Below are positions 19,980 to 32,269 of a stretch of 59,458 bases of DNA, piece by piece. Both the position numbers and the translations under genes were made by a program. Below the pieces are notes generated by a model, which was given only the letters and a program-made list of their open reading frames with translations, made no database searches and was not told the DNA's origin. The stretch is taken from the IMG/VR virus record IMGVR_UViG_3300042542_000678, positions 1-59,458 of that record, one strand, 5' to 3'. This DNA comes from a virus. Numbering within the stretch: the stretch's first letter is position 1; each line of letters opens with the position of its first letter.

Positions 19980-20257
19980 TAGTAACGACCCTTGCCTTTC
20001 CTATCGCGCCAGCCCTCAGCCTTCATAGCCGCTTCAACTCTGTCTAACGGAAAATAGAAACCTGTATGCTTTTCCAGCGCCGCTCTAACAAAGTAAACAT
20101 CAGAATGAGGGATGTGAACAGTTTCAGCTTTGTCTTTATATATAGCTTTATAGACATGAGTCGCCGCGCTATAGGGTAACACATCAAGAAGACCTGCATT
20201 AATCACTTGTTCTTTTGTTGAACAAACATTCAGTTTAATGGCATTAGTGCATTTCAT
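19979..20257 (-). CDS. Hypothetical protein, near the start of the minus-strand late operon
   Basis: A 92-residue protein (KEQVINAGLLDVLPYSAATHVYKAIY; HIPHSDVYFVRAALEKHTGFYFPLDRVEAAM). No family recognised. It is followed by the small basic protein gene at 19710-19979 with a one-base overlap. Confidence 0.6.
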   Translation of the reverse strand: MKCTNAIKLNVCSTKEQVINAGLLDVLPYSAATHVYKAIYKDKAETVHIPHSDVYFVRAALEKHTGFYFPLDRVEAAMKAEGWRDRKGKGRY

Positions 20258-20580
20258 ATCGTGAATTATTATTGTTATTCTATCTATTGTCTACTATATA
20301 GACTTTAAAGCTCTTTAGCGCTACAGGGATTCATTAATTACTATATTAATTGTTTGTTGTTTGTTACACAGAAGCTACAAGCATCATCAGCGTTGTTGTC
20401 TTCTAAGCCCCCTAATCCCCCAATAGAGGTAGTTTTACCGTTTTGAGAAATCTTGTCAAGTGTTATTTTTACATGGTGTTGCTTTCATGTTGAATTGTAG
20501 CACACTTAGGAAGACAAACAACAATGGCCCTAGTGCAAATAGCATCCGTCTATGTCTGCTACAGCATAGCTTAGCATGGA
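20258..20580. other. AT-rich intergenic region
   Basis: No convincing gene. It is AT-rich near 20260-20370 (tattctatctattgtctac, attaattactatattaatt) and holds a candidate minus-strand promoter. It probably drives the late operon to the left. Confidence 0.5.
20432..20459 (-). promoter_or_regulatory. Candidate minus-strand promoter for the late operon
   Basis: On the minus strand TTGACA (20459-20454) is followed after 16 bases by TAAAAC (4 of 6 to TATAAT). The -35 is perfect and the -10 is weak, so activation by a phage or host factor would be plausible. It lies about 175 bases upstream of the 92-residue gene. Confidence 0.45.
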
Positions 20581-20718
20581 TTAAACGACTGTGGTGGCAT
20601 TTGTTTTAGATGGCTGAGGGGTGGGTAGCTTAACCACTTTAAACGCCTGTGTTATTGCTCTCCACAAATCATAGCGTGTGGGAATGGCTGTAGAAAGCTG
20701 TGTGGTTAACAGACTCAT
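20581..20718 (-). CDS. Small hypothetical protein
   Basis: A 45-residue protein (MSLLTTQLSTAIPTRYDLWR...) with AGGA 3 bases upstream of the ATG. The longer frame from 20874 has an improbable Cys-rich extension, so the internal start is preferred. Family unknown. Confidence 0.45.
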   Translation of the reverse strand: MSLLTTQLSTAIPTRYDLWRAITQAFKVVKLPTPQPSKTNATTVV

Positions 20719-21328
20719 TTTCCTGATTTTTGAGTGTGGCTGTATACATATAGCGCCGTACCCCCCACTGGCCCACACCCGCCCACGCTTAGCCGCGCAC
20801 TGGCGCACACTCGCGCAGCCCTGCACATCCAGCGGCAGGTGAGCGCTACAGCCCTGCGTAAATTCACCCGTCATTCAAAAGAGTCTTAAGAATCAATGAC
20901 TTATAAGACTCTTGAAACTGATTCAAAATCAGCTGCGACATGATATGTTACTGACTAACCGGTCATTAAATACCATACCCCTACACTGTGAAGGGTCGGT
21001 ATATCTATATCCCTATACATCGTATAGTGACTACTCAGTCTACATTGCAACTAATGAGTCAATGCTGCAATGCAATAAACGATGCAAATAATCAACAGCT
21101 TATATATCCCAATGCTGCAATGCAACAAACGACAATGTTGATGAAAGCCTCGCACAAACCGAAGGCTTGTCTACGCCAAGCTTCAGGCATACATACGCAG
21201 CAGCTTTGCTGCCAACAACAAACAACAAAACAATTAAATGACGAAAAGCCTCGCATGACATAGGCATCACTCGCGCATGTAATGCAAGCGTCATACGCCG
21301 CAGCTTTGCTGCCTGAGAAACCCTACAC
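20719..21328. other. Divergent control region
   Basis: No gene is visible between the leftward late genes and the rightward early genes. The segment 20755-20870 is GC-rich with repeated short CGC/GCGCAC words. The segment 20880-20985 has short inverted pieces (agactcttgaaactgattc). The part from 21045 onwards holds degenerate repeats. This is the best place for an origin or main regulatory region, by inference from the divergent transcription. Confidence 0.5.
21045..21315. repeat. Degenerate direct repeats in the control region
   Basis: A block reading caatgctgcaatgcaa plus aaacga occurs at about 21060 and again at about 21115. A second, longer unit (aaagcctcgca ... catacgc(a/c)gcagctttgctgcc) occurs at about 21144-21213 and 21243-21313. 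Each copy of the second unit ends in the inverted repeat GCAGC-TTT-GCTGC. Repeats like this are usual in replication origins and operators. Confidence 0.6.
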
Positions 21329-21383
21329 TTGACAGGGCTATTGAAATGTTTGTATAATTGAGGCCGAAACAGCGATGTTGCTG
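21329..21383 (+). promoter_or_regulatory. Early promoter 1 with leader palindrome
   Basis: Perfect TTGACA (21329-21334), an 18-base spacer and perfect TATAAT (21353-21358). Twelve bases further is CAGC-N6-GCTG (21370-21383), which would lie at the very 5' end of the transcript. It drives the first early gene cluster. The same geometry is repeated at 22427 and 29084. Confidence 0.88.
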
Positions 21384-21416
21384 CTTCAAAACGCTACACT
21401 ACCGAAGGTAAACACC

Positions 21417-21647
21417 ATGAAAAAATCACTCAAACGCATTTTCTTTATCTATAGCGAAGCTACTCTCGCTGTGTTCTTTGCCGCCATGTCACTGCTTGAA
21501 GTAGCTTGCTACTTTGCTATTCCGTCATCGGTAAGCTTTGCTGGTGAGCTTGCCCTAGGTGCTGCAATAGGCTTTGCCTTGATGACAGTTGTGTTGGTAA
21601 ATGTAATTTACCGGAATGAAAAGCGTAACAGCATTAACATTATCTGA
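21417..21647 (+). CDS. Small membrane protein, first early gene
   Basis: A 76-residue protein starting MKKSLKRIFFIYSEATL, with two membrane segments (LAVFFAAMSLLEVACYFAI and LGAAIGFALMTVVLVNVIY). GAAGG lies 7 bases before the ATG. An upstream ATG at 21375 would add 14 residues but lies inside the promoter leader, so it is not favoured. First early genes of this kind often act on the host envelope; no function can be assigned here. Confidence 0.7.
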   Translation: MKKSLKRIFFIYSEATLAVFFAAMSLLEVACYFAIPSSVSFAGELALGAAIGFALMTVVLVNVIYRNEKRNSINII

Positions 21648-21654
21648 AAGATAA
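21640..21654 (+). promoter_or_regulatory. TGAAA stem-loop before the 21660 gene
   Basis: TTATC-TGAAA-GATAA, a 5-bp stem with the constant TGAAA loop. The loop TGA is the stop codon of the preceding gene, and the next ATG is 5 bases downstream. Confidence 0.7.
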
Positions 21655-21659
21655 ACATC

Positions 21660-21857
21660 ATGCAAACCGAACAAATTATCACTGCCTTACACAATGCGAA
21701 GCTGTACGAAGCAGCGAAGCTGCAATGCAATAACTCTAACATTGACAAACTGTCAATGATTATTGCAGTGGCGACAGGGAATGTTGCAACATACAAAGTA
21801 TTGTATGAAATGTTTTGCGAATTGCAAAGCGGCAGCCAAACCTACAACATTATCTGA
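21660..21857 (+). CDS. Hypothetical early protein
   Basis: A 65-residue helical protein (MQTEQIITALHNAKLYEAAKL...). It is preceded and followed by TGAAA stem-loops. Family unknown. Confidence 0.6.
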   Translation: MQTEQIITALHNAKLYEAAKLQCNNSNIDKLSMIIAVATGNVATYKVLYEMFCELQSGSQTYNII

Positions 21858-21864
21858 AAGATAA
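21850..21864 (+). promoter_or_regulatory. TGAAA stem-loop before the 21866 gene
   Basis: TTATC-TGAAA-GATAA, with the loop TGA as stop codon of the upstream gene and the ATG one base after the stem. Confidence 0.65.
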
Positions 21865-21865
21865 C

Positions 21866-21973
21866 ATGAAACATTTGCTCAATTGGCTGACAAACCCTCA
21901 GCCTGTGTCATTAATGACATTCATGTCACCCGTCATAGTGCTTGCTGTGATGTTCGCCATTTTCACTTACTGA
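21866..21973 (+). CDS. Tiny single-pass membrane protein
   Basis: A 35-residue peptide (MKHLLNWLTNPQPVSLM...) with one hydrophobic segment (SPVIVLAVMFAIFTY). It fits exactly between two TGAAA stem-loops. Missed by length filters but supported by this context. Confidence 0.5.
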   Translation: MKHLLNWLTNPQPVSLMTFMSPVIVLAVMFAIFTY

Positions 21974-21979
21974 AAGTAA
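21967..21979 (+). promoter_or_regulatory. TGAAA stem-loop before the 21983 gene
   Basis: TTAC-TGAAA-GTAA, with a different stem sequence but the same loop. The loop TGA is the stop codon of the tiny membrane protein. Confidence 0.65.
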
Positions 21980-21982
21980 CTT

Positions 21983-22174
21983 ATGCAAATCGTCACATTG
22001 AAAACCGCCAAAATTGGTGAATACATTAAACGCAAAGCTGACAGCAAAGCTGTATACATCAAGGGTGCATATGACAGAACGACAAAGTCGTTTAGCTGCA
22101 TTGATGTCGAAGACATTTGCCGTGAGATATTTATCAAGGCTGATAAGCCTGTCGTAATCGGCTTCACATATTAA
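21983..22174 (+). CDS. Hypothetical early protein
   Basis: A 63-residue protein (MQIVTLKTAKIGEYIKRKADS, VYIKGAYDRTTKSFSCIDVED). Resembles, from memory, small conserved proteins of proteobacterial plasmids and phages. Function unknown. Confidence 0.65.
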   Translation: MQIVTLKTAKIGEYIKRKADSKAVYIKGAYDRTTKSFSCIDVEDICREIFIKADKPVVIGFTY

Positions 22175-22182
22175 ATCGTAGA

Positions 22183-22198
22183 TTTACCTGAAAGTAAA
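22183..22198 (+). promoter_or_regulatory. TGAAA stem-loop before the 22201 gene
   Basis: TTTAC-CTGAAA-GTAAA: a 5-bp stem, the loop one base longer. Here it is separate from the upstream stop codon, so its conservation cannot be explained by stop codon context alone. Confidence 0.62.
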
Positions 22199-22200
22199 CA

Positions 22201-22455
22201 ATGCAAACTATCCGCAACATTCTCGCAAAAGCCGTAGGCTTTACAGTCATTGGTAAGGGCAGCAAGAAACGCCATTACACATTCACATTCAGCGAAGCTG
22301 CTGAGTGGGCAGCATGCTATGGCAGACATGGTGGTGCAAGCATATACAAGGGTGGCATATGGGTAGCATCCAGAGGCAAGCATACGAAACCGCAGGTTTA
22401 TAAAGCTTGGGATGAAAGCCCTAGACTTGACAGGGTTATTGCAAAGTCGTTATAA
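22201..22455 (+). CDS. Hypothetical early protein
   Basis: An 84-residue protein with RNILAKAVGFTVIGKGSKKRHYTF and AAEWAACYGRHGGASIY. Basic, no recognised family. Its C-terminal codons contain the second early promoter. Confidence 0.6.
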   Translation: MQTIRNILAKAVGFTVIGKGSKKRHYTFTFSEAAEWAACYGRHGGASIYKGGIWVASRGKHTKPQVYKAWDESPRLDRVIAKSL

Positions 22456-22481
22456 TTGAGGCCGAAACAGCAATTTCGCTG
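22427..22481 (+). promoter_or_regulatory. Early promoter 2 with leader palindrome
   Basis: Perfect TTGACA (22427-22432), 18-base spacer, perfect TATAAT (22451-22456), then 12 bases downstream CAGC-N6-GCTG (22468-22481). It shares attgaggccgaaacagc with promoter 1. It lies inside the end of the upstream gene and drives the genes from 22505. Confidence 0.88.
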
Positions 22482-22504
22482 TGTCACTTACCATAGGTAA
22501 ACAA

Positions 22505-22714
22505 ATGGAAATTATCGTTGAAATTAAAAATGTCTACGGAGTAGAGCAAGTCTACCCTGTATGCAATAAAGCAAAGCTTTTTGCTTCAATTGCAGGGACT
22601 AAAACACTTACTTACAAAGTACTTGCCGATGTTGCGGTACTAGGTTACAAAGTAACCTTGAAAGTGCCAACATTCAATCAATCCCACATTTTGCGTTTGA
22701 AAAATTATTCCTGA
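22505..22714 (+). CDS. Conserved small protein (IVEIKNVYGVEQVYPVC type)
   Basis: A 69-residue protein starting MEIIVEIKNVYGVEQVYPVC, with CNKAKLFASIAGTKTLT. Recalled as conserved among plasmids and phages of betaproteobacteria, with unknown function. The frame is open back to 22481, but the ATG at 22505 follows an AGGTAA and matches the usual start. Confidence 0.65.
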   Translation: MEIIVEIKNVYGVEQVYPVCNKAKLFASIAGTKTLTYKVLADVAVLGYKVTLKVPTFNQSHILRLKNYS

Positions 22715-22720
22715 AAGGAA
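22708..22720 (+). promoter_or_regulatory. TGAAA stem-loop with built-in Shine-Dalgarno
   Basis: TTCC-TGAAA-GGAA; the 3' stem strand is the Shine-Dalgarno (AAAGGAAA), 7 bases before the ATG at 22728. The loop TGA is the stop codon of the upstream gene. Confidence 0.7.
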
Positions 22721-22727
22721 ACACATC

Positions 22728-23483
22728 ATGTTCAAGTCTAAAGCTTTGCTTTCCATCAATGCCGATGCAAAAACTAGCAAGGGTGAAACCTTCGGTTTTC
22801 TGACAGGCATTCTCTATCTAGCACCTTACCTTTCCACAAAGTGGAATACATGCAGCATGGCTAAGATCGCTGAGTGCGGCGAAGCTTGCTTGTACACTGC
22901 TGGCCGTGGTGCGATGTCCACTGTGGCAAATGGCCGTATCAACAAAACCATTTGGTTTTTTACTGAACGAAACAGCTTCATGCAACAGCTTGCTGTAAAC
23001 ATTCGACAGCTAGTGAGCAAAGCTGCTAAGCAAAGCTTAATCCCATTGGTTAGACTCAATGGTACTAGCGACATTCGCTGGGAAAGCGTAGCTTTTACAG
23101 ACACCGATGGTGTGGAATACTCTAGCATCTTCGATGCTTTCCCTACAGTGCAATTCTACGACTACACAAAGGATGTGAATCGTAAGGCTTTGCCTTTAAA
23201 TTACGATCTTACATTCAGCTACAGTGGTGTTGTAGGCTTTCAGCCTTTTGTAAACAAAGCCATTGAAAATGGTATGCGACTCGCTGTTGTTTTCCGTAGT
23301 GTTGCTGCTATACCGAAGGTATTTAAAGGCATGTCGGTCATCGGTGGCGACAACAGTGACATTCGTCACTTAGAGGATAAGGGTGTGGTTGTTGCGCTGT
23401 ATGCCAAGGGCAAAGCGAAGCTTGATATGACAGGCTTTGTCGTTGATGCAGCTAAGCCTGTATTCATGCTGCAAGCCGCCTAA
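22728..23483 (+). CDS. GP88-like phage protein
   Basis: A 251-residue protein fitting the mycobacteriophage gp88-like family by pattern: GILYLAPY, a Cys cluster CSMAKIAECGEACLYTAGRGAM (shown in part), KTIWFFTERNSF near residue 80 and LVRLNGTSDIRWE near residue 115. Three Cys residues within 15 positions and a conserved Arg/Gly segment suggest metal or cluster binding. The family's function is unknown. It is the last gene of the first early block, followed by a long intergenic leader. Confidence 0.68.
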   Translation: MFKSKALLSINADAKTSKGETFGFLTGILYLAPYLSTKWNTCSMAKIAECGEACLYTAGRGAMSTVANGRINKTIWFFTERNSFMQQLAVNIRQLVSKAAKQSLIPLVRLNGTSDIRWESVAFTDTDGVEYSSIFDAFPTVQFYDYTKDVNRKALPLNYDLTFSYSGVVGFQPFVNKAIENGMRLAVVFRSVAAIPKVFKGMSVIGGDNSDIRHLEDKGVVVALYAKGKAKLDMTGFVVDAAKPVFMLQAA

Positions 23484-23659
23484 GCTTAGGCATTCCGTGT
23501 AAGGTTGCGAGTCAGCCTTATGCAGAGTGTCTGTGCCATGATGATGCGAATAGCCATGTGATGATGGGTTGCATTGTGGCACAGGGATCTAGGCCAAGCT
23601 AAGCATATGTTATGCGAGGCAAAAGCCGACTAAGTTGTAGGGTTGTTTTTCTGCAACAG
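23484..23659. other. Gene-free segment after the GP88-like gene
   Basis: No supported gene or clear terminator. Short runs such as atgatgatgcgaatagccatg and gatgatgggttgcattgtgg are degenerate repeats without an obvious role. Confidence 0.4.
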
Positions 23660-23710
23660 TTGACAAGCGAAGCAAGATGTTTGTATAATGTAAGGGCACT
23701 GATCGTAGTG
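23660..23710 (+). promoter_or_regulatory. Early promoter 3 with palindrome
   Basis: Perfect TTGACA (23660-23665), 18-base spacer, perfect TATAAT (23684-23689). A palindrome GCACT-GATCGT-AGTGC (23696-23711) follows about 7 bases later; its 6-base centre mirrors the CAGC-N6-GCTG leaders, but the sequence and spacing differ. It starts the long early operon. Confidence 0.85.
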
Positions 23711-23719
23711 CAGCAAGTC

Positions 23720-23731
23720 GCTCTTTAAAAA
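23720..23731 (+). promoter_or_regulatory. rrn-like boxA in the early leader
   Basis: GCTCTTTAAAAA lies about 30 bases past the -10, close to the rRNA boxA consensus TGCTCTTTAAC bound by NusB-NusE. A roughly 235-base leader to the first ATG contains gcatgc pairs and gtacagggtgaatgtacagg. It would suit antitermination over the many-gene operon. Confidence 0.5.
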
Positions 23732-23965
23732 TCTAATGCTAGTGTCGGTGAGGGTGTGTGTTTCTTAGCAGGGCATGCATCACCACTATGGACTAGCCCA
23801 ATCTGTACAGGGTGAATGTACAGGGCATGCTGACATATCATGCTGATAATATGTGAGTGAATCCATTGTGGCTGTTGGGTGATGGCTAGACAATGGGTTT
23901 CAGACAGTGTATTTTGATGCATTGCCTGAAGCTATTTCGCTTCGCTTTCCTATAAGGAAATAAAC

Positions 23966-24394
23966 ATGGCTAAAACAATTATCCCTGTCACTGCTGGTGT
24001 ATCAACATGGGGTGAGAGTGCAGACTGTACAGTCAGGGCACTAGCTAACAGCACTGGTCTACGATATGGCAATGCCCATAACATACTGCGTCAACATGGC
24101 AGGAAAGACAAGCGAGGCTGCACCTGTAATGTGTGGCACGATGCATACATTTCCAATGGCATGTCACTGGTAGGTGTCTACGGCACAACCAAAGGGGCAC
24201 GATACCTAGCGAAGAAGATATCTGTTGTGGCACAGAATGGCACAACCCTTGGCAGCATATTGCCTAAGCTTACAAATGGCAGCTACATAGTCATCATTAC
24301 ACGGCATGCATTGGCTGTGGTCAATGGTGGTGTCGTTGACATGAATTTAAATCGGTCTAACAGCCGTGTCATTGCAGTGTATAAACATTCCTGA
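23966..24394 (+). CDS. Putative papain-like cysteine peptidase-fold protein
   Basis: A 142-residue protein with SADCTVRALANSTGLRYGNAHNIL (Cys21), GTTLGSILPKL, then GSYIVIITRHALAVVNGGVVDM (His114, Asp125). The order Cys, His, Asp and the DC-x-RA / H-A-x-x-V-x-G-x-V-x-D signatures are those of small papain-like (NlpC-type) folds in phage genomes. Peptidase, amidase or an inactive binding role are all possible. It is the first gene of the long early operon, a position often used for host-targeting proteins. Confidence 0.55.
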   Translation: MAKTIIPVTAGVSTWGESADCTVRALANSTGLRYGNAHNILRQHGRKDKRGCTCNVWHDAYISNGMSLVGVYGTTKGARYLAKKISVVAQNGTTLGSILPKLTNGSYIVIITRHALAVVNGGVVDMNLNRSNSRVIAVYKHS

Positions 24395-24400
24395 AAGGAA
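24388..24400 (+). promoter_or_regulatory. TGAAA stem-loop before the 24408 gene
   Basis: TTCC-TGAAA-GGAA, with the loop TGA as stop codon of the upstream gene and the GGAA stem strand as Shine-Dalgarno 7 bases before the ATG. Confidence 0.7.
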
Positions 24401-24407
24401 ACATATT

Positions 24408-24659
24408 ATGACTTATTGCCAAAAACACAATTATACAATTACCCTTTACCCATATGGTGAGGATGTGGGCATGGGTATCGTCAAGATATCACCCTCTACA
24501 CAGTATGGGTATTGGGAACATGGATACGGCAGCGAGGGTGGTGGGCTGTGGTTTGAGGGTAAAGAACTGGCAGATTTTGATGGTGATTATATGCTGCCAA
24601 AGGCAGTGGTTAAAATGCTGCGAGATAATGGTTATGCATTAGATGAATCGTTTGATTAA
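24408..24659 (+). CDS. Hypothetical early protein
   Basis: An 83-residue acidic, aromatic-rich protein (NYTITLYPYGEDVGMGIVKIS; GYGSEGGGLWFEGKELADFDGDY). The start follows AAAGGAAACATATT. Family unknown; composition recalls small DNA-mimic or inhibitor proteins, which is only a guess. Confidence 0.6.
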   Translation: MTYCQKHNYTITLYPYGEDVGMGIVKISPSTQYGYWEHGYGSEGGGLWFEGKELADFDGDYMLPKAVVKMLRDNGYALDESFD

Positions 24660-24660
24660 C

Positions 24661-24671
24661 TCCTGAAAGGA
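24661..24671 (+). promoter_or_regulatory. TGAAA stem-loop before the 24680 gene
   Basis: TCC-TGAAA-GGA, a 3-bp version after a TAA stop codon, followed by AACATATT and ATG. Confidence 0.55.
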
Positions 24672-24679
24672 AACATATT

Positions 24680-25048
24680 ATGTTAGGCATTAATGTTAGA
24701 AACACAAAGGACAAACCCTTTGCTGATTTAATTGTCGATGGTTTTAAAACTATAGAGACACGGGAAAGCAATAGCTTATATCCCTATGTTGGCAAGCGAA
24801 TAGCAATTGTCAGGACAGGTATGGGTAAGGCATTTGCCATAGGCGAAGTTACTATCACTGGTTTTAGTTGGACAAATAGTAAATCAATTTTCGATACCTA
24901 TCAGCCCCTGCACATGGTGACTGAGGACAATGCCTTTTATTTTAAAGAAGGCACAGGCAAGTTCATGTATTTCTTAGAGAATGCTGTGCGTTATAAAACA
25001 CCTGTTGCTGTTGGCAAGGGTATAGTGGCTAGACAATTAATATCCTGA
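24680..25048 (+). CDS. ASCH-like (PUA-superfamily) protein
   Basis: A 122-residue protein with MLGINVRNTKDKPFADLIVDGFKTIETR, then YPYVGKRIAIVRTG and AFAIGEVTITGF. The pattern (conserved G-x-K-T-I-E-x-R, then a barrel with G-x-R-I-A-I) is that of ASCH domains, which bind RNA or modified nucleotides. A nucleic acid-binding regulatory role in early infection is likely; the ligand is unknown. Confidence 0.62.
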   Translation: MLGINVRNTKDKPFADLIVDGFKTIETRESNSLYPYVGKRIAIVRTGMGKAFAIGEVTITGFSWTNSKSIFDTYQPLHMVTEDNAFYFKEGTGKFMYFLENAVRYKTPVAVGKGIVARQLIS

Positions 25049-25053
25049 AAGGA
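25043..25053 (+). promoter_or_regulatory. TGAAA stem-loop before the 25062 gene
   Basis: TCC-TGAAA-GGA, with the loop TGA as stop codon of the ASCH-like gene and AAGGAAA as Shine-Dalgarno before the ATG. Confidence 0.6.
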
Positions 25054-25061
25054 AACATATT

Positions 25062-25451
25062 ATGAAAGTATTCGTATACTTTAACCTGCACCGCAAGCTG
25101 TTCAGTATCAAGGCACTTGAGGGTGACATGAAGGGGCGTGTCATAGCACATCGTCAACAGGTGCTGCTCAATGATGCGACATTCAAGGTGTCTGAGGCAG
25201 GACGGCAGCGTGTCATCCGTGAGCGGCGTAAGAATGTACATGCTGGTGTCAGTGGCACATGGTTTGGCGATGATGATGTTCAGGGCAGGACTATTGCATT
25301 CACCACCATCAATGGCTCTGCCATTATGTACAACCCTTACAGGTACAGCACATTCGTTCACTTGTATGGTGAGCATCCGATAACATCTGCCCGACTTGTA
25401 GCGCTGAATGTCAGCGACAGCAAGCGTCCATCCATCCACACTTGGGACTAA
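25062..25451 (+). CDS. Conserved phage/plasmid protein (KVFVYFNLHRKLFSI type)
   Basis: A 129-residue basic protein: MKVFVYFNLHRKLFSIKALEG, then KVSEAGRQRVIRERRKNVHAG and YNPYRYSTFVH. I recall this pattern as widespread in phages and mobile elements, without known function. Its central Arg/Lys helix suggests contact with nucleic acid. Confidence 0.65.
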   Translation: MKVFVYFNLHRKLFSIKALEGDMKGRVIAHRQQVLLNDATFKVSEAGRQRVIRERRKNVHAGVSGTWFGDDDVQGRTIAFTTINGSAIMYNPYRYSTFVHLYGEHPITSARLVALNVSDSKRPSIHTWD

Positions 25452-25456
25452 ATAAT

Positions 25457-25759
25457 ATGTTACTTAAACTAGGCATATGGAATGTTCGCATTGTTAATAT
25501 TGGCGATCAATATGGCGGGTGGCGTCTTCCTAATGACAAAGCACCGATGGTAGAGTTCTACGATAATAGATATCCGCATACTGACTATGGGCAGTTTGTC
25601 TCACGCTATTATATCTCCACTATACTTAGTCAAGACAGCCGTGGAGGTGAGTACTCTAACGGACTGTGCCTAGATGGTGGAGTGCCAGCATGGCAGGTAT
25701 CTGCTGAGGATATGGCACAGGTTATAACCTTTCTGAAAGAACACAATGGAAACACCTAA
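25457..25759 (+). CDS. Hypothetical protein
   Basis: A 100-residue protein (LLKLGIWNVRIVNIGDQYGGWRL; RYYISTILSQDSRGGEYSNGLCLDGG). The TTG at 25442 would give a longer form; the ATG at 25457 is preferred. It overlaps the next gene by 14 bases. Family unknown. Confidence 0.6.
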   Translation: MLLKLGIWNVRIVNIGDQYGGWRLPNDKAPMVEFYDNRYPHTDYGQFVSRYYISTILSQDSRGGEYSNGLCLDGGVPAWQVSAEDMAQVITFLKEHNGNT

Positions 25760-25958
25760 ATGTTATTACAGCTTTTCTCAATCAGCCGATGACGATATTA
25801 ATAATTGGAGCGTCATTGTAGATGGGTCACCAATATGCAGCAAGCGTACATTCCCTGAAGCTGTGCGCTGTGCTGAGAGTTTTAAACTAAACCCTTGCCT
25901 ATACTTTTGGAATGGTGTTATAGGACAGTTTGTTCAACTAGGTATATTGAAGAGGTGA
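25746..25958 (+). CDS. Hypothetical protein
   Basis: A 70-residue protein (METPKCYYSFSQSADDDINNW; FPEAVRCAESFKLNPCLYFW). A weak TTC-TGAAA-GAA element lies just before the start, but inside the previous gene. Family unknown. Confidence 0.58.
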   Translation: METPKCYYSFSQSADDDINNWSVIVDGSPICSKRTFPEAVRCAESFKLNPCLYFWNGVIGQFVQLGILKR

Positions 25959-30069: not shown

Positions 30070-30900
30070 ATGGATAAAGACTATGCAATTGGCATGTTCA
30101 TTGGCACAGCTATCGGTGATGCGCTTGGCGCACCGCTAGAATTTACACAGCCAAACACAGGGCATCCGCTCACTGAGATGGTGGGTGGTGGCGCTCACGA
30201 TACTGCTGTTGGTGAGTGGACAGATGACACAGCCATGATGGTATGCATTGCCGATGCGTACATCAACTTCAAAACCTTTTCACCGAAGGTGATTGCTAAT
30301 AATTTCGTTGATTGGAAACGCTACGGCACACATGGTACTCGTGACTATTGCTTTGACATTGGCCGTACAACATCTGATGCACTGTCGAGCATTGAGAAGT
30401 CCCGCATCTATGGTGGCAGCACAGACTACAAGACCAGCGGCAATGGTTCTATCATGCGAATGGCAGCTAATGTTATGGTCAATCATCGATGCATGGCACT
30501 GGCTATTGGTGAGTCTGTTGCGACAGCACTGATTACACACGGCACAAAAGACACTGTGCAATATGTATCGGCACTGGCTGAAGAGCTTCATCGTGGCAGC
30601 AGACTGTCTTGCTATGATGGTCTGCGTGTCAAAGGTGCAGCAAAGCCTGATGGTTCTGTGATGGGCTGCTATGCTTCAGCATGGGATAGCATTGCTCGTA
30701 CAACAAGCTTTAAAGACGCTGTTGTACATGCCATCAACAAGGGTGGTGACGCTGACACAGTGGGTGCTGTCACTGGTATGATTGCTGGCCGTATCTATGG
30801 CTACTCTGCCATCCCTCAGCGCTGGCTCGACAAGCTGGTCAAGCATGATGAGTTGCTTGTCATGGCAAACGATTTGTACTATCTGTACGAAGGAGAATGA
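30070..30900 (+). CDS. ADP-ribosylglycohydrolase family protein
   Basis: A 276-residue enzyme with all the family landmarks: GTAIGDALGAPLEF, EWTDDTAMM (residues 49-57), TSGNGSIMRMAA and GGDADTVGAVTGMIAG (225-240). The Asp pairs bind two magnesium ions in DraG/ARH enzymes, which hydrolyse ADP-ribose from Arg or other acceptors, or act on ADP-ribose metabolites. In a phage it could reverse ADP-ribosylation by host defence toxins, or balance a virion ADP-ribosyltransferase. Lies between DUF932 and the integrase. The ATG at 30070 removes a poor N-terminal extension. Confidence 0.88.
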   Translation: MDKDYAIGMFIGTAIGDALGAPLEFTQPNTGHPLTEMVGGGAHDTAVGEWTDDTAMMVCIADAYINFKTFSPKVIANNFVDWKRYGTHGTRDYCFDIGRTTSDALSSIEKSRIYGGSTDYKTSGNGSIMRMAANVMVNHRCMALAIGESVATALITHGTKDTVQYVSALAEELHRGSRLSCYDGLRVKGAAKPDGSVMGCYASAWDSIARTTSFKDAVVHAINKGGDADTVGAVTGMIAGRIYGYSAIPQRWLDKLVKHDELLVMANDLYYLYEGE

Positions 30901-30902
30901 CA

Positions 30903-31175
30903 ATGAAAAGAATGTGTGACGGGATGGGCGGGAATACCCCTTGCCCACACCCACAGGATTGCACAGTGAGTTGCGGGTTTAACAATGCAGGACTTGATCC
31001 TGTGGAGACTCGTAAGATCAAACCATATCCGTCCGTTCCAGATGATATTGAAGAGCTTAGCATAGAGTGGTACAGCATTGGACAGATGCTTATCGGTGCA
31101 ATATTTGCAGCACTTATAGTGGCGGCTGCGCTTTTAATATTCACTGGTATGTACATAGGCAGGATGCTCATATGA
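30903..31175 (+). CDS. Cys-rich membrane-anchored protein
   Basis: A 90-residue protein with an N-terminal Cys-rich part (MKRMCDGMGGNTPCPHPQDC, CGFNNAG) and a C-terminal membrane segment (IGAIFAALIVAAALLIFTGMYIG). AAGGAG lies 7 bases before the ATG at 30903; the ATG at 30897 is an alternative in ATGA overlap. Function unknown. Confidence 0.58.
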   Translation: MKRMCDGMGGNTPCPHPQDCTVSCGFNNAGLDPVETRKIKPYPSVPDDIEELSIEWYSIGQMLIGAIFAALIVAAALLIFTGMYIGRMLI

Positions 31176-32269
31176 AACTACCACGCTACCTATTATCCTT
31201 CATCCGCTATGACACTACACACTACCGCTACAACCCTCCAGTAGATGCGATTGATGCTGGTATAGTTGAGCGTAAGGCGTGTGGCACAGACTACGAAGCT
31301 GCTGTCGAGTATGCTGAGAAGCATAATGCAATCATGGACTCGTGGCGTAAGGAACACCGCTACTTAAAAGACTTGTCTGAGAAGTCAAGGGTTGAAGACC
31401 TGTTCAAGTCTTACATCAACAGCATAGGCTACAAAGCCCTGTCTCCAAAGAGCAAGACTGATTATGTCTACTACCTGAAGCAATGGTTTCATGATGCTAC
31501 AGTGTCACAGGAGCTACTCAACACAAGGCTGTGTGACATTGCCACACCAATGTGCCAGCGTATCTACGACAAGCATGCAGAGAACAGTGTTAGCCTTGCC
31601 AATCACACACTGGCAGTCTATCGTTTGTTGTTTAGCTTTGCTATCCGCAATGGCTTTACAAAGCACAACCCCTTCACTGAGGTGAGCAGACGGCAAGACA
31701 AGCCGCGCCGTGTGGTGTGGGAAAAGAAACACATCAAGCAATTCATGGACAAGGCATTCACCAAGTATGAGTGGCGTAACATTGGGTTGCTGGTGTACAT
31801 GGCCTACTCATGGGGTCAGAGGCTAGGCGACATGCGACTGCTCACATGGGACAACTACGATGCTGACACAGGGGTGATGAAGCTGGAGCAGAGCAAGCGT
31901 AGGGCAAGGGTGGAGATACCAACCAGTGCTGCCTTGCGTGAGATGCTGGCACAGCAGAAGGCTGACATTGGCTGGCAGAAGTACATTGTTCCGTCCCCTA
32001 TTGGCGATGGTAGTGGTGGATTTAAACCTTACACCCTATTGCAATTGGCTAAGGTTGGTGGCACAATCATGCGAGAGTCTGGCATACCAGATCACCTTAA
32101 GATGATGGACATGAGGCGAACAGCAGTGACTGAAATGATTGAAGCTGGTGTACCGCTGACCAATGTCATGTCTGTCACAGGACATGCAACAACACACAGC
32201 CTTACACCCTACATTAAGAACACATTAAAGAGTGCATCTGTTGCACAAGATATGAGGGACATGATATGA
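31172..32269 (+). CDS. Tyrosine recombinase (integrase-like)
   Basis: A 365-residue protein with an N-terminal SAM-like core-binding domain (about residues 72-165) and a catalytic domain with Arg217 (SWGQRLGD), Arg315 (MDMRRTA), His338 (VTGHA) and nucleophile Tyr347 (LTPYI). The usual His of HxxR is Met312 here, a tolerated change in part of the family. The 5' end couples to the membrane protein gene by ATGA. A role in integration or in resolving multimers are both open; no repressor or excisionase was recognised nearby. Confidence 0.85.
   Translation: MKLPRYLLSFIRYDTTHYRYNPPVDAIDAGIVERKACGTDYEAAVEYAEKHNAIMDSWRKEHRYLKDLSEKSRVEDLFKSYINSIGYKALSPKSKTDYVYYLKQWFHDATVSQELLNTRLCDIATPMCQRIYDKHAENSVSLANHTLAVYRLLFSFAIRNGFTKHNPFTEVSRRQDKPRRVVWEKKHIKQFMDKAFTKYEWRNIGLLVYMAYSWGQRLGDMRLLTWDNYDADTGVMKLEQSKRRARVEIPTSAALREMLAQQKADIGWQKYIVPSPIGDGSGGFKPYTLLQLAKVGGTIMRESGIPDHLKMMDMRRTAVTEMIEAGVPLTNVMSVTGHATTHSLTPYIKNTLKSASVAQDMRDMI

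Follow-up and report, generated by a model that had tools for sequence, protein, structure and literature searches.

The window analysed here, the whole 59,458-base stretch of the IMG/VR virus record IMGVR_UViG_3300042542_000678, carries over its immediate-early operons a dense array of small hairpins: perfect Watson-Crick stems of 5-7 base pairs (bp), mostly with a 3-nucleotide (nt) loop and closed by a C-G pair. The array is confined to one region, is conserved in relatives as structure and not as sequence, and occurs in two unrelated phage lineages. As an explanation we tentatively favor DNA mini-hairpins at a density of about one per 50 bp; selection would preserve their capacity to fold into hairpins, and they would likely act via extrusion by supercoiling, though we would give this somewhat less than an even chance. 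The terminase of the window shares 71% identity with that of phage HMO-2011 and 80% with that of the uncultured podovirus MW202701.

The hairpin array

Between 20.4 and 26.0 kb we found 44 perfect stems of 5 bp or more that enclose a 3-nt loop, compared with 4-20 for each other loop length; most of these triloop hairpins are situated within genes. With loops of 3-4 nt taken together, 50 non-overlapping stems of at least 5 bp are located in 21190-25760. In the core (21.4-23.5 kb) there is ~1 hairpin per 50 bp, coding sequence included, and the density of triloop hairpins reaches 9-15 per kb vs ~1.4 elsewhere. Stem length is restricted as well: in the core the probability of a fifth pair, given four, is 0.77, with a drop to 0.33, near background, for the sixth; in all array-bearing relatives the excess of stems is mainly at 5-7 bp and then ends. 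Regular spacing was considered and rejected (coefficient of variation of gaps 0.99 vs 0.96 simulated).

No Rfam covariance model matched region 20200-25800 at E <= 0.5 (the window has two tRNAs only), and among open-access papers, the scope of the search, we saw none that describes an array of this kind.

Conservation of structure in the GP88 gene

The core of the array includes a gene of the GP88 family. Relatives of this gene are encoded in 172 viral contigs, all metagenomic, from which 80 loci were fetched. GP88 genes of 41 non-redundant array-bearing relatives hold 340 triloop hairpins vs 62 after synonymous shuffling; in 20 array-less relatives the corresponding numbers are 21 and 20. Synonymous shuffling and the array-less homologues rule out codon or amino-acid composition as the cause. 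Per kb, the early region had 6.8 triloop hairpins, the sequence far upstream 1.4 and the array-less relatives 1.5, and each genome inspected had a single array patch of 3-4 kb.

The stems covary to the point of forcing paired amino-acid changes. At one coding site the codon alignment reads GAA AGC GTA GCT TTT (ESVAF) or GAA GCT GTA AGC TTC (EAVSF), and also GAA ACC GTA GGT TTT (ETVGF) and GAA ACT GTA AGT TTC (ETVSF); at a second site we saw GETFGF, GEAIGF or GESIGF, with glycine codons matching. A shift of partner was observed too, the stem being retained with a 4-nt loop (AAACC-CTTG-GGTTT). For 13 named hairpins in a 40-sequence alignment the covariation score was 0.193 vs 0.025-0.069 with partners slid, and doubly changed cells numbered 173 vs 19-39; these counts are not independent events because the alignment rows are related (kinship was handled only via removal of near-identical sequences and duplicate stems), and the slid controls somewhat favor the hairpins, since the 13 were picked from that same alignment. 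Among close pairs of sequences, 58 of 136 double substitutions located in triloop stems were compensated, compared with 88 of 452 in long-loop controls.

The preliminary description of this region had argued, from eight stem-loops in the window, for selection on structure rather than on sequence, and had looked to related phages for the covariation that this implies; there the stems do covary. The start hairpin TTCCTGAAAGGAAAC is nearly invariant in most relatives; therefore, the strongest covariation is located in coding hairpins and not at starts. We also considered the GP88 protein as the cognate factor of the hairpins and rejected it: no PDB entry significantly matches its AlphaFold model (predicted local distance difference test score 69.8), and GP88 is present in array-less phages as well.

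Hairpins at gene starts

The eight stem-loops had been presented as one family placed before start codons, with varying stems and a constant TGAAA loop. All eight are present at their positions, with the arms as described; the stem-loops are real, but the register was off. In seven of them the flanking T and A also pair, producing the perfect palindromes of Table 1 with a 3-nt loop, GAA; the element at 22183 is the long-loop exception. The family was also under-counted, as hairpins at 21400, 22488, 23946 and 25731 are placed alike before ATG codons, and start loops include ATA and GTA besides GAA. It is correct that in six of the eight the loop TGA serves the gene before it as stop codon (21640, 21850, 21967, 22708, 24388 and 25043; not 22183 and 24661).

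We examined 13 early gene starts in 21.4-25.8 kb. At 10 of them a hairpin with a 3-nt loop ends 2-9 nt upstream, the distance of a Shine-Dalgarno (SD) sequence, and the start hairpins contain the SD; the random expectation, for positions within the same region, was 11%, i.e. 1.4 starts (P = 5.5e-8). Among the remaining three, start 21866 has a hairpin 1 nt from the ATG, start 22201 has the long-loop element and start 25458 has none; a hairpin or close variant is thus present at 12 of 13 early starts. Hairpin TTCCTGAAAGGAAAC recurs at starts in many phages.

A second lineage of array-bearing phages

A search with TTCCTGAAAGGAAAC led to array-bearing contigs without GP88: contig L178 and 8 of its 11 relatives, phages with an AAA/MoxR-like ATPase gene and GC content of ~51 to 60%; three relatives in this lineage have no array. 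Here the array lies over the lineage's own genes, with 93 hairpins in 8 array-bearing ATPase genes vs 12.5 after synonymous shuffling. Distant structural and replication genes are all that the second lineage has in common with the window; no early protein is shared. The array is present, therefore, in two unrelated lineages of uncultured freshwater phages with no early gene in common. We looked for a shared trans-acting phage protein and found none: no protein of the window is common to the array-bearing genomes of the second lineage yet absent from their array-less relative.

In L178 (566-1045) a ~430-nt leader with many triloop hairpins comes after a promoter-like TTGACA site; the leader has no significant Rfam match and ends in an intrinsic-terminator-like AAGCCCC-TTT-GGGGCTTTTTTT.

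In the first lineage, two array contigs contain the Rfam small RNA (sRNA) Betaproteobacteria-1 (RF02932), intergenic and adjoining the array (L152:12926-13057 and L131:4487-4618), which suggests a betaproteobacterial host. This sRNA was not detected in window region 20200-25800. Among cultured phages, no array was seen in Curvibacter phages P26059A and P26059B, in the T5-like phage DT57C (first 36 kb) or in Limnohabitans phage DC31 (16.7-kb GP88 region, the region profiled).

Comparison with known systems

The early promoters of phage N4, which are used by a virion RNA polymerase (vRNAP), have hairpin stems of ~5-7 bp; the hairpins of the array have stems of the same range and are also similar in the 3-nt loop, in location in the first-expressed region and in stems that vary while staying paired. 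In N4, supercoiling driven by gyrase extrudes these elements in vivo as small DNA hairpins, each with a loop of 3 nt, and their uncontacted stem bases may vary provided they pair (PMC4496689). However, N4 has three promoters, conserved contact bases and the vRNAP, whereas we observed dozens of hairpins, mostly intragenic and in both loop orientations, in a window with consensus sigma70-type promoters. The excess at 5-7 bp and the dominance of 3-nt loops are as in N4; promoter bases conserved across sites were not found, the stems being diverse and the loops of several types. Thus, the array does not belong to the N4 promoter family: contact bases are unconserved, copies are far too many, the promoters are of sigma70 type and no vRNAP-like protein was identified in the part of the genes scanned. 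The largest gene of the window (1745 amino acids) gave no support for an N4-like vRNAP; it had no Pfam or PDB match and no RNA polymerase motif B.

The target of the diversity-generating retroelement (DGR) of phage BPP-1 forms a hairpin or cruciform in supercoiled DNA, where stem structure matters and stem sequence does not, and the loop is GRNA (PMC3240598). That target is one GC-rich hairpin of 7-10 bp with a 4-nt loop beside the variable repeat, whereas here many hairpins of 5-7 bp extend over 3-4 kb; no DGR reverse transcriptase turned up in family scans covering part of the proteins. In cluster K mycobacteriophages the start-associated sequence (SAS), a repeated SD-containing motif, precedes many gene starts, and its extended form (ESAS) has inverted repeats (PMC3203893). 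The SAS is a fixed 13-bp GGGATAGGAGCCC confined to starts; here the sequence differs, the stems vary and most hairpins are intragenic. RNA viruses can have genome-scale ordered RNA structure, pervasive in coding sequence, with no fixed sequence and with GU pairs tolerated; unlike it, the array is found in a double-stranded DNA phage, is made of perfect short palindromes and occupies a single early region.

DNA or RNA

The identity of the loop matters, but equally for both strands: in coding interiors, summed over the two lineages, loops were GNA in 37 cases and TNC in 37 (expected 8.6 and 10.4). Such strand symmetry is expected for duplex DNA and is one of three observations in its favor, the single mismatches and the closing pair being the others. 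Stems with a single mismatch had G-T about as often as A-C (100/87, 24/23 and 46/38), at or near control levels; thus there is no sign of G-U tolerance. Among the features anticipated for a conserved RNA, compensatory change was observed; tolerance of G-U over A-C and strand asymmetry were not. The RNA tetraloops GAAA and GCAA were not enriched (8 vs 6.6 and 6 vs 5.3 expected), although GTAA and GAGA were. The closing pair was C-G in 531 hairpins and G-C in 65, a preference that recalls d(C-GNA-G) mini-hairpins; for d(GNA) triloops, melting went up from 48.9 to 68.9 C when the loop was closed by C-G (PMC5815330). We consider DNA to be more likely than RNA, if not proven.

For hairpins acting as DNA, negative supercoiling, generated by host gyrase and by early transcription itself, would extrude them from the duplex. 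Once extruded, they may work by way of some general property or factor of the host; candidate actions are torsional buffering, or docking of a host protein that binds hairpins or resembles the single-stranded DNA-binding protein. At gene starts, where the 3' arm is the SD and the loop often holds the upstream stop, translational coupling would be added.

Several observations weigh against the DNA reading. The array starts right at the first putative early promoter or shortly past it, a position no less suited to a role as RNA or to one coupled to transcription. RNA folds are predicted to be stronger than those of shuffles (z = -4.2 for the GP88 mRNA, z = -4.3 for the L178 leader), and the placement at starts, with the SD inside the hairpin and the upstream stop in the loop in six of eight cases, points to translation for this subset. 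The absence of a G-U excess may mean that RNA stems of 5 bp cannot afford wobble. GCA, a favorable d(GNA) loop, is not enriched, with AAA and TTT enriched instead. No hairpin-binding protein common to the array-bearing phages was found, the lack of a vRNAP-like protein among the scanned genes counts here too, and we infer, but did not see, that the hairpins extrude in vivo, that a host factor takes part and that the phage benefits.

Some of these points are what one would expect if early transcripts were selected for short local hairpins every ~50 nt that serve as a block to RNases, Rho or R-loops and, before genes, as a gate to the SD via translational coupling. Given the strand-symmetric loops, the missing GU tolerance and the classic tetraloops without enrichment, we regard selection on mRNA as unlikely, though it deserves serious attention.

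Selection of any kind would be dispensable if transient DNA hairpins served as templates for repair or misreplication (quasipalindrome correction), creating palindromes and apparent covariation. Strand symmetry is expected in this case as well; the arms are either perfect or missing, stems with one mismatch are not in excess, and local conversion can mimic compensatory change. However, the stems do not keep growing but end at 5-7 bp (the probability of a next pair is down to 0.19 after 7), placement at starts is far from random, the register shift to a 4-nt loop kept the stem, and the process would have to be confined to one 3-4-kb region. Such an origin is improbable.

The preliminary description had a start-specific element in mind, in which a ribosome terminating at the loop would open the SD hairpin for the next gene or a protein would bind the constant TGAAA loop. 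The hairpins at 12 of 13 early starts, the stop codons in the loops and the TTCCTGAAAGGAAAC hairpin common to many phages agree with this. However, coding sequence and a leader are filled with hairpins of the same kind that have other loops, and hence neither the terminating ribosome nor the binding protein is sufficient; hairpins inside genes and leaders are the majority, have the strongest covariation and stay unexplained, and ATA and GTA are found even among start loops. An element restricted to starts was thus rejected, and as an account of the array we give this model very little credence. What survives is coupling by the terminating ribosome in the SD-bearing subset, where it is plausible: there the same hairpin probably couples translation in addition.

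We give hardly any weight to the possibility that hairpins in the first-injected DNA cause self-folding of CRISPR (clustered regularly interspaced short palindromic repeats) spacers or of Argonaute guides, whichever strand they derive from: it would presumably need Watson-Crick pairing on both strands, dense early coverage and unrelated phages, all of which were seen, but at one per ~50 bp a whole hairpin would be present in an estimated ~40% of 32-nt windows only, and the array tracks early operons and not the neighboring late genes across the promoter region.

Other features of the early region

Coordinates of the array, of its hairpins at starts and in coding sequence and of the putative promoters are given in Table 1. 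At 20732-20800 the window has a motif resembling GGCTGTATACATATAGCGC...CCCACTGGCCCACRCCCGCC, also carried by L152 and L131; it may represent the first early promoter and may mark where the array is bounded on the left. Upstream of P1, at 21150-21320, is a pair of imperfect direct repeats (GCCTCGC ... GCAGCTTTGCTGCC), each with a triloop hairpin at its end.

A boxA similar to that of rRNA leaders (GCTCTTTAAAAATCTA) is situated downstream of P3, at 23720-23735, and several relatives have a boxA-like GCTCTTTAA ~100-240 bp after GP88; together they suggest Nus-type antitermination of the later early operon. We rejected the idea that anti-Rho hairpins are replaced by boxA in the third operon, as hairpin density has no sharp drop after GCTCTTTAA.

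Early and middle genes include those for an ASCH-domain protein (24680-25048), a homologue of mycobacteriophage L5 gp82 (25062-25451), an ADP-ribosylglycohydrolase (30070-30900) and a tyrosine integrase (31172-32269).

Table 1. Positions in the window of the hairpin array, selected hairpins, the GP88-family gene and promoters
Feature	Coordinates	Strand	Remark
Hairpin array over immediate-early operons	20918..25741		dense core 21400-23500
Consensus sigma70-type promoter P1, TTGACA-18-TATAAT	21329..21358	+	from sequence
Start hairpin TACC-GAA-GGTA	21400..21410	+	before gene 21417
Start hairpin TTATCT-GAA-AGATAA	21640..21654	+	loop TGA is stop of previous gene
Coding hairpin GCAGC-GAA-GCTGC	21711..21723		
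Coding hairpin CATTGACA-AAC-TGTCAATG	21740..21758		
Start hairpin TTATCT-GAA-AGATAA	21850..21864	+	1 nt before ATG 21866
Start hairpin TTACT-GAA-AGTAA	21967..21979	+	before ATG 21983
Coding hairpin AACGAC-AAA-GTCGTT	22078..22092		
Start hairpin TTTAC-CTGAAA-GTAAA	22183..22198	+	before ATG 22201
Coding hairpin AAAGCC-GTA-GGCTTT	22228..22242		
Consensus promoter P2, TTGACA-18-TATAAT	22427..22456	+	from sequence
Start hairpin TTACC-ATA-GGTAA	22488..22500	+	before ATG 22505
Coding hairpin AGGTTAC-AAA-GTAACCT	22642..22658		
Start hairpin TTCCT-GAA-AGGAA	22708..22720	+	before GP88 gene
GP88-family gene (PF17338), 251 amino acids	22728..23483	+	12 triloop hairpins in coding sequence vs 1.9 synonymous-shuffled
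Coding hairpin AAACC-TTC-GGTTT	22786..22798		GETFGF; relatives covary to GCC..GGC, TCC..GGA
Coding hairpin AAAGC-GTA-GCTTT	23083..23095		ESVAF; relatives covary to ACC..GGT, GCT..AGC, ACT..AGT
Coding hairpin AGGCT-TTC-AGCCT	23234..23246		several distinct paired stems in relatives
Consensus promoter P3, TTGACA-18-TATAAT	23660..23689	+	from sequence
Start hairpin TTTCCT-ATA-AGGAAA	23946..23960	+	before ATG 23966
Start hairpin TTCCT-GAA-AGGAA	24388..24400	+	before ATG 24408
Start hairpin TCCT-GAA-AGGA	24661..24671	+	before ATG 24680
Start hairpin TCCT-GAA-AGGA	25043..25053	+	before ATG 25062
Start hairpin TTCT-GAA-AGAA	25731..25741	+	before ATG 25746

Implications

One could speculate that dense, sequence-free arrays of mini-hairpins extrudable by supercoiling, selected within the protein-coding immediate-early operons of unrelated tailed phages, constitute a new layer of information at the DNA level, with a host factor or DNA topology as the route and with force enough to dictate pairs of amino acids; we offer this as a possibility that we lean slightly against. 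Selection for shape that recodes proteins, seen in the first expressed kilobases of two lineages, points to a constraint at the onset of infection that has gone unrecognized. Should the hairpins act as DNA, they would take the N4 precedent beyond three promoters, to entire operons, and would open to direct testing what supercoiling and small cruciforms do early in infection; if they act as RNA, they would represent a new kind of structured phage mRNA.

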